In this document: piece after piece, positions 14,151-16,349 of the stretch
Layout: the number at the start of each line of letters is the position of its first letter
How positions within the stretch are numbered: the first letter of the stretch is position 1
Virus record (IMG/VR): IMGVR_UViG_3300032323_001584
Span: 1-20,509 of that record
DNA length: 20,509 bases
From: a virus
Reading direction: 5' to 3' (one strand)
Notes under the pieces: model-generated
Databases searched by the model: none
What the model was told of the DNA's origin: nothing
What the model saw: the letters and a program-made list of their open reading frames with translations, nothing else
Position numbers and translations under genes: made by a program

Positions 14151-14855
14151 TCATAAAAAACTCATTTGCATTGGATTTGTAAATGTTTTTAACTCAAAAC
14201 TATCATTTTTTTTATGTTTTTTACCTTTAGGGTATTCATTAATAATGTCATATTTTAAAACTGATAAAAGTTCTTTCTTCATATATTTATTAGAAATTAT
14301 TTGCAAATAACGATGTTTTCTTGGACGCTGGACGAGAACTGTTCGTTCTTTTATATTGTCTATGTCTGTTGAAATAACGTGCCTACCATGCTTTTGCTTA
14401 GTCCCATCAATAAAAATGCGATCAGTTCTAATTTCAGACAAACCTAAATAAATCCAATTTGTGGCTTGATATACATAACCTACATGATCCTGAGATGTAT
14501 CAGCATAAGACAATACAATACTTGGATGTGGAAGAAGTTTAAGACTTTTAGATATTAAAAAACTAGCCTCATTTGGACGATTGTATTTCAATACTAATCT
14601 GTTTAATTCCAATACTTTCTTTGAATGTTCTTTTCCACATATTCCTTCACAAACACGAGGACTAGCTGGAGAGCCATAAGTAACACATCCAATCATCTCG
14701 TTATTGTCAAATAATCCAAATGCATAAGAAATACTAGGCCAACGTTTTGCGTAATGAATATTTAAAATAAAATCAGAACATTCATTTCTTTGTATTTGTC
14801 TAACCTCAAAGATTTTTTTATTTTTAGCGATTAAAGCAATGTCATCTATAGTCAT
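14151..14855 (-). CDS. Mom-like DNA adenine hypermodification protein
   Basis: Probable homologue of phage Mu Mom, which converts adenine in DNA to N6-carbamoylmethyladenine and so blocks many restriction enzymes. The 234-residue protein has a GNAT-like layout: MIGCVTYGSPASPRVC (54-69), VLELNRLVL (81-89, with an Arg conserved in this family), SYADTSQDHVGYVYQATNW (116-134) and PRKHRYLQI (178-186). The ADxxxxHxGxxYQAxNW stretch is the strongest family signature. DNA here is visibly richer in A and T than the flanking helicase and zinc-finger genes, suggesting separate acquisition. It overlaps the CHC2 gene by 4 bases (ATGA). Activity, and whether a Com-like regulator is needed, are unknown. Confidence 0.82.
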   Translation of the reverse strand: MTIDDIALIAKNKKIFEVRQIQRNECSDFILNIHYAKRWPSISYAFGLFDNNEMIGCVTYGSPASPRVCEGICGKEHSKKVLELNRLVLKYNRPNEASFLISKSLKLLPHPSIVLSYADTSQDHVGYVYQATNWIYLGLSEIRTDRIFIDGTKQKHGRHVISTDIDNIKERTVLVQRPRKHRYLQIISNKYMKKELLSVLKYDIINEYPKGKKHKKNDSFELKTFTNPMQMSFL

Positions 14856-15268
14856 CTTATGTGCCTCGCTGCTTCAATGATCCGTTCTTGTGCTTGTCTT
14901 AAACGTGATCTGTCATTATCAGTTAATTTAACTCCGTTAGCTAGGTTACTTGCAGCTACAGATACTAGTACGGACTCGAATTCAATAACACGCAGTAGGT
15001 CTGTTGCGTAAAAAGCATTTTTAACTTTAGGTTTGTGATGAGATAACTTATCCTCTTTAGGAAATAACTCACCTATATCCATACCGATAGCACCTACTAT
15101 TTCCTGTACAGAACAACCACCAAAGCATTTCAATAAGATACGACCATCTTCTGTTTCTCTTATCGCTAGAGAAGGGCTACGATCTTCGTGAGCAGGACAA
15201 CTTGCTGTCCATCTATCTCTACCACCTTTTATTTTCTTTAGGTTAGAGAGTAATTTTTCTATGCTCAT
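14852..15268 (-). CDS. CHC2 zinc-finger primase-like protein (no TOPRIM domain)
   Basis: The 138-residue protein carries the DNA primase zinc-binding module: C24-x2-H27 in SCPAHEDRSPSL (23-34) and C48-x3-C52 in KCFGGC (47-52), followed by VQEIVGAIGMDIGELFP (54-70), a typical CHC2 tail. In primases this domain reads template sequence for primer start. The catalytic TOPRIM part is absent; the C-terminal half (85-138) is helical and unmatched. It may cooperate with the host primase or with a phage polymerase outside this window. Coupled by ATGA overlaps to the initiator gene above and the Mom-like gene below. Confidence 0.85.
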   Translation of the reverse strand: MSIEKLLSNLKKIKGGRDRWTASCPAHEDRSPSLAIRETEDGRILLKCFGGCSVQEIVGAIGMDIGELFPKEDKLSHHKPKVKNAFYATDLLRVIEFESVLVSVAASNLANGVKLTDNDRSRLRQAQERIIEAARHIR

Positions 15269-15987
15269 TTAGCACCTCTCAGTCTGCCATCAAATACTGG
15301 TGTACTTACGCTAGGACGTTTAAAGTCAGCAGCATTTCTTAACCATGTATTTAAAGCAAAGTCCCAACTTTTAAACTTGTTTCCTCTAGATTTATGATAA
15401 TCACTAAACTTTAATAATTCTGCATTTATATTTACATTTAATTGTTTAGCTAATTCATAATGACTTTCTTTAGGCAAATAGTCATCTGATAGTTCAGTTT
15501 CTTTTGTTGCAACTTTCTTTTTTGTCTTTTCTTCGTCTATAAATATATTTGAAGATGAAGAAGAAGATGAAGATGAAGGGGTTGGTTTTTGCTTAACCTC
15601 TTTTTCAACCTTAAGGTTAACCTTATCCTTAACCTTTAAAGCAGGATTTCCTCCTAGCTTTCCACCTAAAGCCCTGATATTCCTAAGATTTTCGTCTTTT
15701 ACCATTCTTCTGCTAACGATAGCTCCATCAATTAAGTCATAAACTCCAGCCTGACTTAATTCAGAAAGCCAACCTTCTACTTCAGGTAAGGTTTGCCCAA
15801 CCATACGTGCAAGGTTGTCTGGAAGGATAACCTTATCGCCAACCTTAAGATAACCATAAGGATTACCTTCGTGCATATAGCAGATCATATCCATCCATAA
15901 ACCTCTAGCCCCAATAGAGCAAGAACGTAGTGCGGTATCACGTAACCAATCAGAGGGATAAAATTGAAATGAAGGTCTTTTAATCAT
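15265..15987 (-). CDS. Phage replication initiator / DnaT-like primosomal protein
   Basis: Likely recruits the helicase to the phage origin. The 240-residue protein starts RPSFQFYPSDWLRDTAL (4-20) and GARGLWMDMICYMHE (26-40), a winged-helix-type N-terminal domain common in phage initiators. After a linker with KVKDKVNLKVEKEVK (118-132) and nine consecutive Ser (138-146), a C-terminal domain ELLKFSDYHKSRGNKFKSWD (190-209) plus FALNTWLRNA resembles the DnaT C-terminal single-strand-binding domain. The linker DNA contains four 12-bp repeats, as in lambda O, where the origin lies inside the gene. It overlaps the upstream 71-residue gene by 8 bases. Call is by pattern and context. Confidence 0.78.
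   Translation of the reverse strand: MIKRPSFQFYPSDWLRDTALRSCSIGARGLWMDMICYMHEGNPYGYLKVGDKVILPDNLARMVGQTLPEVEGWLSELSQAGVYDLIDGAIVSRRMVKDENLRNIRALGGKLGGNPALKVKDKVNLKVEKEVKQKPTPSSSSSSSSSNIFIDEEKTKKKVATKETELSDDYLPKESHYELAKQLNVNINAELLKFSDYHKSRGNKFKSWDFALNTWLRNAADFKRPSVSTPVFDGRLRGAK
15593..15640. repeat. Four 12-bp direct repeats (candidate origin iterons)
   Basis: TTAACCT-like units begin at 15593, 15605, 15617 and 15629, exactly 12 bases apart (units TTAACCTCTTTT, TCAACCTTAAGG, TTAACCTTATCC, TTAACCTTTAAA). The central pair also creates the palindrome AAGGTTAACCTT (15613-15624). Two further copies of AACCTTA lie at 15829 and 15841, again 12 apart, inside the same initiator gene. A visibly AT-rich stretch (about 15395-15550) lies beside the cluster. 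Periodic iterons beside an AT-rich region inside an initiator gene are typical of lambda-type origins. Confidence 0.55.
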
Positions 15988-16195
15988 TTATAAACTCCTT
16001 ACATAAGCCATCATCCCAATCATCATACATAGATAAAAGTTTGTCTTTTAACAATAAATTTATATGATAGGCTTGTTCAGGAGAAACAATTATTGTTACT
16101 TCTTTCCCTAGCTCAATGCTTTCTTGCTTTAATACCAAACAGCCAACATCACTAATGTAAACCTCTAGTTCTTGCGATCCTCTAAATTTCAACAT
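15980..16195 (-). CDS. Small protein at the head of the replication operon, 71 aa
   Basis: Unrecognised. Soluble and slightly acidic: MLKFRGSQELEVYISDVGCL then EVTIIVSPEQAYHINLLLKD (35-54) and an acidic end (DDWDDGLCKEFIND). The pattern of short strands followed by a helix is compact and single-domain. ATG 16195 is preferred to an in-frame TTG at 16207, because GGGAAA lies 5-10 bases upstream of the ATG. It is the first gene after the folded leader RNA, so its expression would be the one most directly controlled by that structure. Confidence 0.65.
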   Translation of the reverse strand: MLKFRGSQELEVYISDVGCLVLKQESIELGKEVTIIVSPEQAYHINLLLKDKLLSMYDDWDDGLCKEFIND

Positions 16196-16208
16196 AGCTT
16201 TTCCCAAT

Positions 16209-16288
16209 AAAAAAAGCCCTAGGTGAGACTCTCACTATTTCTAGTGTTGACGGACTGGTGAGTAACCAGCAGAGTCCCATCTAAGGCT
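16209..16288 (-). ncRNA. Multibranched structured RNA ending in a T-run (leader/attenuator or sRNA)
   Basis: On the minus strand, 16288-16271 pairs with 16232-16215 over 18 positions: mostly Watson-Crick, two G-T pairs and one A-C mismatch. The long stem encloses two smaller hairpins, CTGGT/ACCAG with loop TACTC (16269-16255) and CACTA/TAGTG with a GAAA tetraloop (16246-16233), giving a three-way junction. Seven T follow at once. G-T pairs are favoured on the minus strand, supporting transcription in that direction. It can act as a terminator for the upstream genes or as a regulated leader of the replication operon. It is not a tRNA: there is no T-loop or anticodon pattern. Confidence 0.6.
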
Positions 16289-16298
16289 TACTCGTTAA

Positions 16299-16316
16299 AT
16301 ATGCCGTCAAGCATAT
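16299..16316. promoter_or_regulatory. Operator-like inverted repeat at the predicted transcription start
   Basis: ATATGC and GCATAT form perfect 6-base arms around a 6-base centre. The site begins 5 bases downstream of the -10 element of the minus-strand promoter and covers the predicted start point near 16314, where a bound repressor would block transcription. The repressor-like gene at 18794 is one possible partner. It could instead form a small hairpin at the 5' end of the transcript. Confidence 0.4.
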
Positions 16317-16320
16317 ACCT

Positions 16321-16349
16321 ACTATACCGTTTTCTGTCTTATTCTGCAA
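16321..16349 (-). promoter_or_regulatory. Sigma70-type promoter for the replication operon
   Basis: On the minus strand, TTGCAG (16349-16344) and TATAGT (16326-16321) are separated by exactly 17 bases. The predicted start is near 16314, so the transcript would begin with the operator-like repeat and the folded RNA, then the 71-residue gene, initiator, CHC2, Mom-like and helicase genes. The -10 box overlaps the stop codon of the small zinc-knuckle gene. Confidence 0.6.

Follow-up and report, generated by a model that had tools for sequence, protein, structure and literature searches.

Protein repressors and antiterminators are usually credited with a phage's decision to replicate. In the freshwater phage of IMG/VR virus record IMGVR_UViG_3300032323_001584, a folded RNA stands directly in front of the replication genes, and the question raised by this locus is what that RNA is and whether it could decide if the genes behind it are read. 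The window, by which we mean the whole 20.5-kb record, contains capsid, portal and terminase genes. Its replication operon lies 3' of the RNA element and comprises a small ORF followed by initiator, primase-like, Mom-like and DnaB-like genes; genes for an ERF-type annealing protein and a single-strand binding protein run divergently from it. The first gene of the operon (15980-16195, minus strand; ~71 aa from the ATG at 16195, with a TTG at 16207 in frame) had no family match that we could find, and the replication initiator gene (15265-15987, minus strand) matches PHROG 1408 (1.8e-9). The operon also includes a Mom-like DNA modification gene (14151-14855; Pfam PF25680). A link between that gene and the RNA was rejected: among loci of Mom relatives the RNA occurs only in L032, which comes from an already known carrier contig.

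A folded RNA at the head of the replication operon

The original prediction for this locus described a promoter with 17-base spacing, an inverted repeat, an 18-position stem enclosing two hairpins and a run of seven T, and each of these lies where it was placed, in an RNA element that spans about 16316-16209 on the minus strand. The promoter (16349-16321) consists of a weak -35 hexamer (TTGCAG, 16349-16344; 3/6), a 17-nt spacer and the -10 hexamer TATAGT (16326-16321); it went unlisted in a consensus scan with a threshold of 9 matches in 12. Transcription is predicted to start near 16315-16313, inside the 5' arm of hairpin H1 (16316-16299), whose arms (16316-16312 and 16303-16299) and loop (C-UUGACGG, 16311-16304) correspond to the inverted repeat ATATGC-TTGACG-GCATAT. 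The long stem, P1 (16288-16271 with 16232-16215), has 18 positions, 17 pairs and an A.C mismatch at position 9. Inside it lie hairpin P2 (16270-16254; GCUGG UUACUCA CCAGU, with a constant G.U closing pair), the junction strand J (16253-16247) and hairpin P3 (16246-16233; CACUA GAAA UAGUG, with a GAAA loop). A U-tract (16214-16209), which makes seven T with the last P1 position at 16215, completes an intrinsic-terminator-like signal whose stem is the outer 8-9 pairs of P1.

Two pseudoknots and an alternative hairpin, none of them part of the original prediction, complete the layout. PK1 (16310-16247) pairs the H1 loop UUGACGG (16310-16304) with CCGUCAA of J, and PK2 (16293-16260) pairs GAGUAA (16293-16288) with UUACUC in the P2 loop (16265-16260), the 3' end of the GAGUAA strand abutting or overlapping P1. 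A possible alternative hairpin at the ribosome-binding site (RBS), P4 (16218-16196), would pair GGCUUUUUUU with GGGAAAAGCU (core GCUUUU/AAAAGC) around the Shine-Dalgarno sequence and is mutually exclusive with the outer P1 pairs.

The element is part of a family that Rfam 15 does not contain

The minus-strand element is a member of an RNA family that is absent from Rfam 15, a larger finding than the one first stated. Relatives were reached through phages with a related initiator, which carry the same element upstream in other letters, and the search pattern drawn from these gave at least 120 matches in IMG/VR. From all loci we parsed 111 non-redundant members, so that the family numbers at least 111; a second pattern yielded 27 parsed members of a variant subclass with quite different PK1 letters (UGGGGAG/CUCCCCA). 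In an independent sample of 80 loci fetched by initiator protein alone, 54 carry the RNA.

Nearly all parsed members come from uncultured phages, with Burkholderiales genomes contributing four and a Betaproteobacteria MAG one. The real matches in bacterial genomes are in a Polynucleobacter isolate, a Burkholderiales MAG and a Betaproteobacteria MAG; two further, divergent copies are in bacterial genomes of the same family as the Polynucleobacter genome, and the other pattern matches in bacterial genomes look like chance. By sequence search, the RNA is almost absent from records of named or cultured phages (two uncultured genomes only), and plasmids gave no credible match. In MW202462.1 (L365:817-1059) a reverse-strand hypothetical protein is annotated across the RNA, probably a mis-annotation, and no gene is annotated after the RNA, where the initiator gene would be expected. 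Rfam returned no relevant match for the window even at a permissive threshold, on which ground a known riboswitch or ribozyme was rejected, in agreement with the original reading that no such consensus was recognisable; locus L239 likewise had no match. Our literature search, incomplete in its coverage, found no description of this RNA.

Covariation supports six helices, two of them pseudoknots

The RNA strand folds at -42.6 kcal/mol, against -25.4 kcal/mol in shuffles (z = -5.7), and homologues hold many of the compensatory changes by which the prediction was to be checked. Among 50 diverged homologues in alignment, standard pairs fill 94.4% of pair cells (75.9% when shuffled), and the covariation score is 0.530 against 0.178, with 0 of 500 shuffles as high, in a control that ignores relatedness among the sequences. 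We nonetheless regard the structure as secure, because pairing in this alignment falls to 35-45% of cells when partners are slid by 1-3 columns, because many pair types occur per position and because the loci are independent.

All six helices (H1, P1, P2, P3, PK1 and PK2) covary. H1 shows two-sided covariation at all five pairs. PK1 keeps 7/7 pairs in 111/111 members, in four Watson-Crick versions of which UUGGCGG/CCGCCAA is the commonest (80/111, with H1 loop C-UUGGCGG), and the search pattern would have let mismatched combinations through. The inverted repeat, originally taken for an operator, is thus mainly an RNA hairpin with a paired loop rather than a DNA site. PK2 occurs in 51 pair versions, always compensated, and averages 6.3 bp against 4.4 when loops are swapped between members (maximum 4.65 in 200 swaps); its spacing to P2 is 17-20 nt (18 in 72/111), and the P2 loop varies in length. 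P1 is paired in 98.4% of cells, with two-sided change in 14 of 17 pairs, and has 18 positions, in most members with one near-central mismatch (A.C, A.G, U.U or C.A). Covariation in the 50-homologue alignment also supports P2 and P3, the latter commonly with a GNRA loop across the family. The G.U pair closing P2 is kept in loci L245 and L246, which were found without the search pattern; elsewhere its conservation is partly imposed by that pattern.

In L245 (1456-1610) and L246, from two bacterial genomes, the RNA is nearly identical and the HNH endonuclease gene directly behind it is clearly diverged; the DNA 5' of the RNA gave no alignment, the U-tract has been lost, and a further hairpin upstream shows compensated arms. 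P1 in these copies still has 18 positions, with A.C at position 9 and one further mismatch. Across the family, G.U pairs are frequent in stems and other non-standard pairs are few outside the central mismatch, which argues that the minus-strand RNA is what is selected. We conclude that this is a new, securely structured RNA family and infer for it a regulatory role on phage replication.

Signals around the RNA and the genes behind it

A -10-like hexamer is most frequent 9-15 nt before the H1 loop, where most of 90 non-redundant members have one, and transcription should therefore start at H1; the -35 signal of the family is weakly above shuffles, and antisense -10-like sites show no peak in the same 90 members. 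At the other end, the 8 nt that follow P1 contain at least six T in 110/111 members; in nearly all members the GC-rich outer P1 (about -12 kcal/mol) is thus directly followed by a U-tract, as in an intrinsic terminator, whereas L245 and L246 lack the tract. These signals support what had been proposed from the window, namely a promoter, a multibranched, strand-specific RNA and a terminator at the head of a replication operon. P1 keeps its 18 positions and its central mismatch even in the two copies that lack the U-tract, a constancy that a mere terminator would not need.

The original prediction did not include the fixed geometry of P1 and of the start codon. The next start codon lies 14-23 nt 3' of P1 in nearly all members (typically ~17 nt), apparent spacings of 6-8 nt being mostly explained by in-frame TTG codons, and a single P1-to-start spacing prevails in most of the 54 RNA-bearing loci fetched by protein alone. 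Because this short spacing is nearly constant, a further promoter would not fit between RNA and start codon, and the operon needs read-through from the RNA's promoter or from upstream.

The replication operons headed by the RNA have unrelated first genes, which encode DUF1376 and other initiators, DnaD-like and ParB-like proteins or a large primase, and DNA polymerase is also among the replication genes concerned. Some first genes are homing endonucleases (HNH, GIY-YIG, NUMOD4) ahead of initiator or DNA polymerase genes. At seven loci (L022, L116, L123, L141, L147, L155 and L204) a homing-endonuclease gene sits precisely between RNA and replication gene, with the RNA-to-start spacing preserved; the endonuclease type was tested for some of these and judged from the look of the sequence for others. 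The surroundings of the RNA were searched for a regulator gene dedicated to it, but held nothing beyond ordinary genes of replication and recombination and Cro-like genes. The Polynucleobacter prophage has, in this order, a divergent CI-like repressor gene, a small gene, the RNA, the initiator gene and later a Q-like gene, which puts the RNA in the position of nutR-tR1 in lambda.

There is moderate evidence that the end of P1 and the U-tract may re-pair with the stretch before the AUG as an RBS hairpin: P4-type stems average 5.96, whereas 300 swaps of P1 ends never gave more than 5.62, a comparison uncorrected for relatedness. The UGGGGAG subclass has, in 19 of its 27 members, a second hairpin whose loop copies that of H1, displays the Shine-Dalgarno sequence and is complementary to J; the H1 loop is repeated at the RBS in this subclass only.

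Attenuation as the best reading

Since its fold is kept in over a hundred other phages in which the letters differ, the element very probably represents an RNA switch, so far undescribed, that governs the reading of the phage replication genes, and attenuation is the best reading of it. In its specific form, a cis-acting, pseudoknot-gated terminator and RBS switch that controls the replication operon, we hold this reading to be moderately probable. Transcription would start at the base of H1, and the helices known from covariation would fold as the RNA emerges, presumably in the order H1, P2, PK2, PK1. Once the 3' half of P1 emerges, outer P1 would terminate transcription intrinsically, a short way ahead of the first ribosome-binding site, with read-through where PK2 is kept and termination where PK2 is lost. 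On top of this termination control a translational layer is likely: in read-through transcripts the end of P1 and the U-tract would re-pair around the RBS, and in the UGGGGAG subclass the loop of the RBS hairpin, as a copy of the H1 loop, could pair with J. The balance might be tipped by a phage or host protein, an RNA partner or folding kinetics.

Geometric reasoning suggests that PK2 and the outer half of P1 exclude each other within one molecule, because PK2 abuts P1 and the 18-bp P1 measures ~50 Angstrom, against about 30 spanned by P2 and its loop. PK2 would then either compete with the terminator or act between molecules; we favour competition because the operon needs read-through and all parts are spaced in cis. 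A balanced pair of PK2 and P1 energies was considered and rejected, since outer-P1 and PK2 stabilities are uncorrelated in the non-redundant set, a result that speaks against a switch, as does a P1 length more constant than termination requires.

Alternative readings

Since the folded RNA begins and ends almost exactly at the predicted start and the terminator, it could instead be a stand-alone small RNA acting in trans, either as an immunity RNA directed at incoming operon copies, in the manner of P4 CI RNA, or as a dual-function RNA like IsrK (PMC4825925). We think this unlikely, though worth keeping in mind: the near-constant start-codon spacing and the diversity of first genes point to cis coupling, and all loops except that of P3 are already paired within the molecule itself. 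Processive antitermination of the put (HK022) or EAR (Bacillus) kind, in which the folded nascent RNA would load onto the polymerase so that its own and later terminators are ignored, would suit an RNA that heads a long operon irrespective of the genes in it. It is improbable, as the RNA has no Rfam match and ends in a built-in terminator, which no put- or EAR-type element is known to do.

The absence of a linker between PK2 and P1, the narrow range of PK2-to-P2 spacing and the incompatibility of PK2 with a full P1 in one chain would each fit a homodimer or multimer, in which the P2 loop would reach into another copy and pair with its PK2 strand, stacked coaxially on that copy's P1, and expression would track RNA concentration and hence copy number. 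The large ornate RNAs GOLLD and ROOL, which form homo-oligomers (PMC12286853), count in favour of such an assembly. Because the P2 loop varies in length, however, the dimer geometry would not be constant, and we give the idea a very low probability. Also improbable is a new replication-control RNA class in which a fast-diversifying, always compensated PK2 kisses between molecules, dimers sense copy number, the PK2 sequence sets self and non-self (a phage 'incompatibility') and PK1/J controls the RBS. A feature of the DNA itself (operator, origin or cruciform), suggested by the inverted repeats and the adjoining initiator gene, is extremely unlikely, since the strand-specific G.U pairs and the pseudoknots, which have no role in duplex DNA, largely refute an operator or origin and the first genes need not be initiators.

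Comparison with known systems

In plasmid leaders of the ColIb-P9 repZ type (IncI-alpha/IncB/IncL-M), a pseudoknot switches translation of the initiator and a hairpin loop 5'-UUGGCG-3' lies upstream of it (Asano and Mizobuchi 1998, in PMC10724649; PMC9977716). The key loop of our RNA resembles these copy-control leaders: the commonest version, in 80/111 members, contains the motif and has a downstream complement, as does the UUGACGG of the window with its CCGUCAA. The resemblance is one of outline, and the RNA is not a member of this group. Unlike those leaders, it has two pseudoknots around a three-way junction and a terminator U-tract, and we saw no leader peptide; J lies inside P1, whereas the pseudoknot strand of the plasmid leaders is beside the initiator RBS. 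Cis-antisense control of the ColIb-P9 type was rejected because there is no conserved antisense promoter.

P4 CI RNA and Gifsy-1 IsrK (PMC4825925) are likewise short, terminated or processed phage RNAs heading replication or induction operons, but they act in trans by antisense pairing, and the new RNA has no Rfam match at all. Lambda nutR-tR1 and HK022 put occupy a comparable place ahead of replication genes, the likeness to put, which the original prediction had raised, being positional only; unlike either, the new RNA carries its own promoter and terminator.

The int-alpA RNA (RF02996) shares with the new RNA a closing stem, two hairpins and a U-run, but differs in sequence and fold and has no H1/J pseudoknot. 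In phages without the new RNA it stands in the same slot before the same kinds of initiator genes (L302:2397-2463 and L011:3981-4047; just below cut-off at L300:2405-2479; similar cases elsewhere), and by eye its 3' loop there also pairs with a stretch after the U-run. The same slot in L289 and L290, in the last 130 nt before position 2501, holds other kissing-loop terminator leaders, in which the loops of a 5' hairpin and of the terminator hairpin are complementary (GGACAAG/CTTGTCC and GTGCGAG/CTCGCAC). In L029 and L030 a GC-rich, apparently highly structured leader of yet another type, with the long inverted repeat GCGCTTGAGG...CCTCAAGCGC, lies about 250 nt before the initiator start. A double-pseudoknot RNA whose fold is conserved across environmental phages, independently of the replication genes that follow, would thus sit on the replication decision; different structured RNAs share its slot in related phages, and the locus could give int-alpA RNA a testable role.
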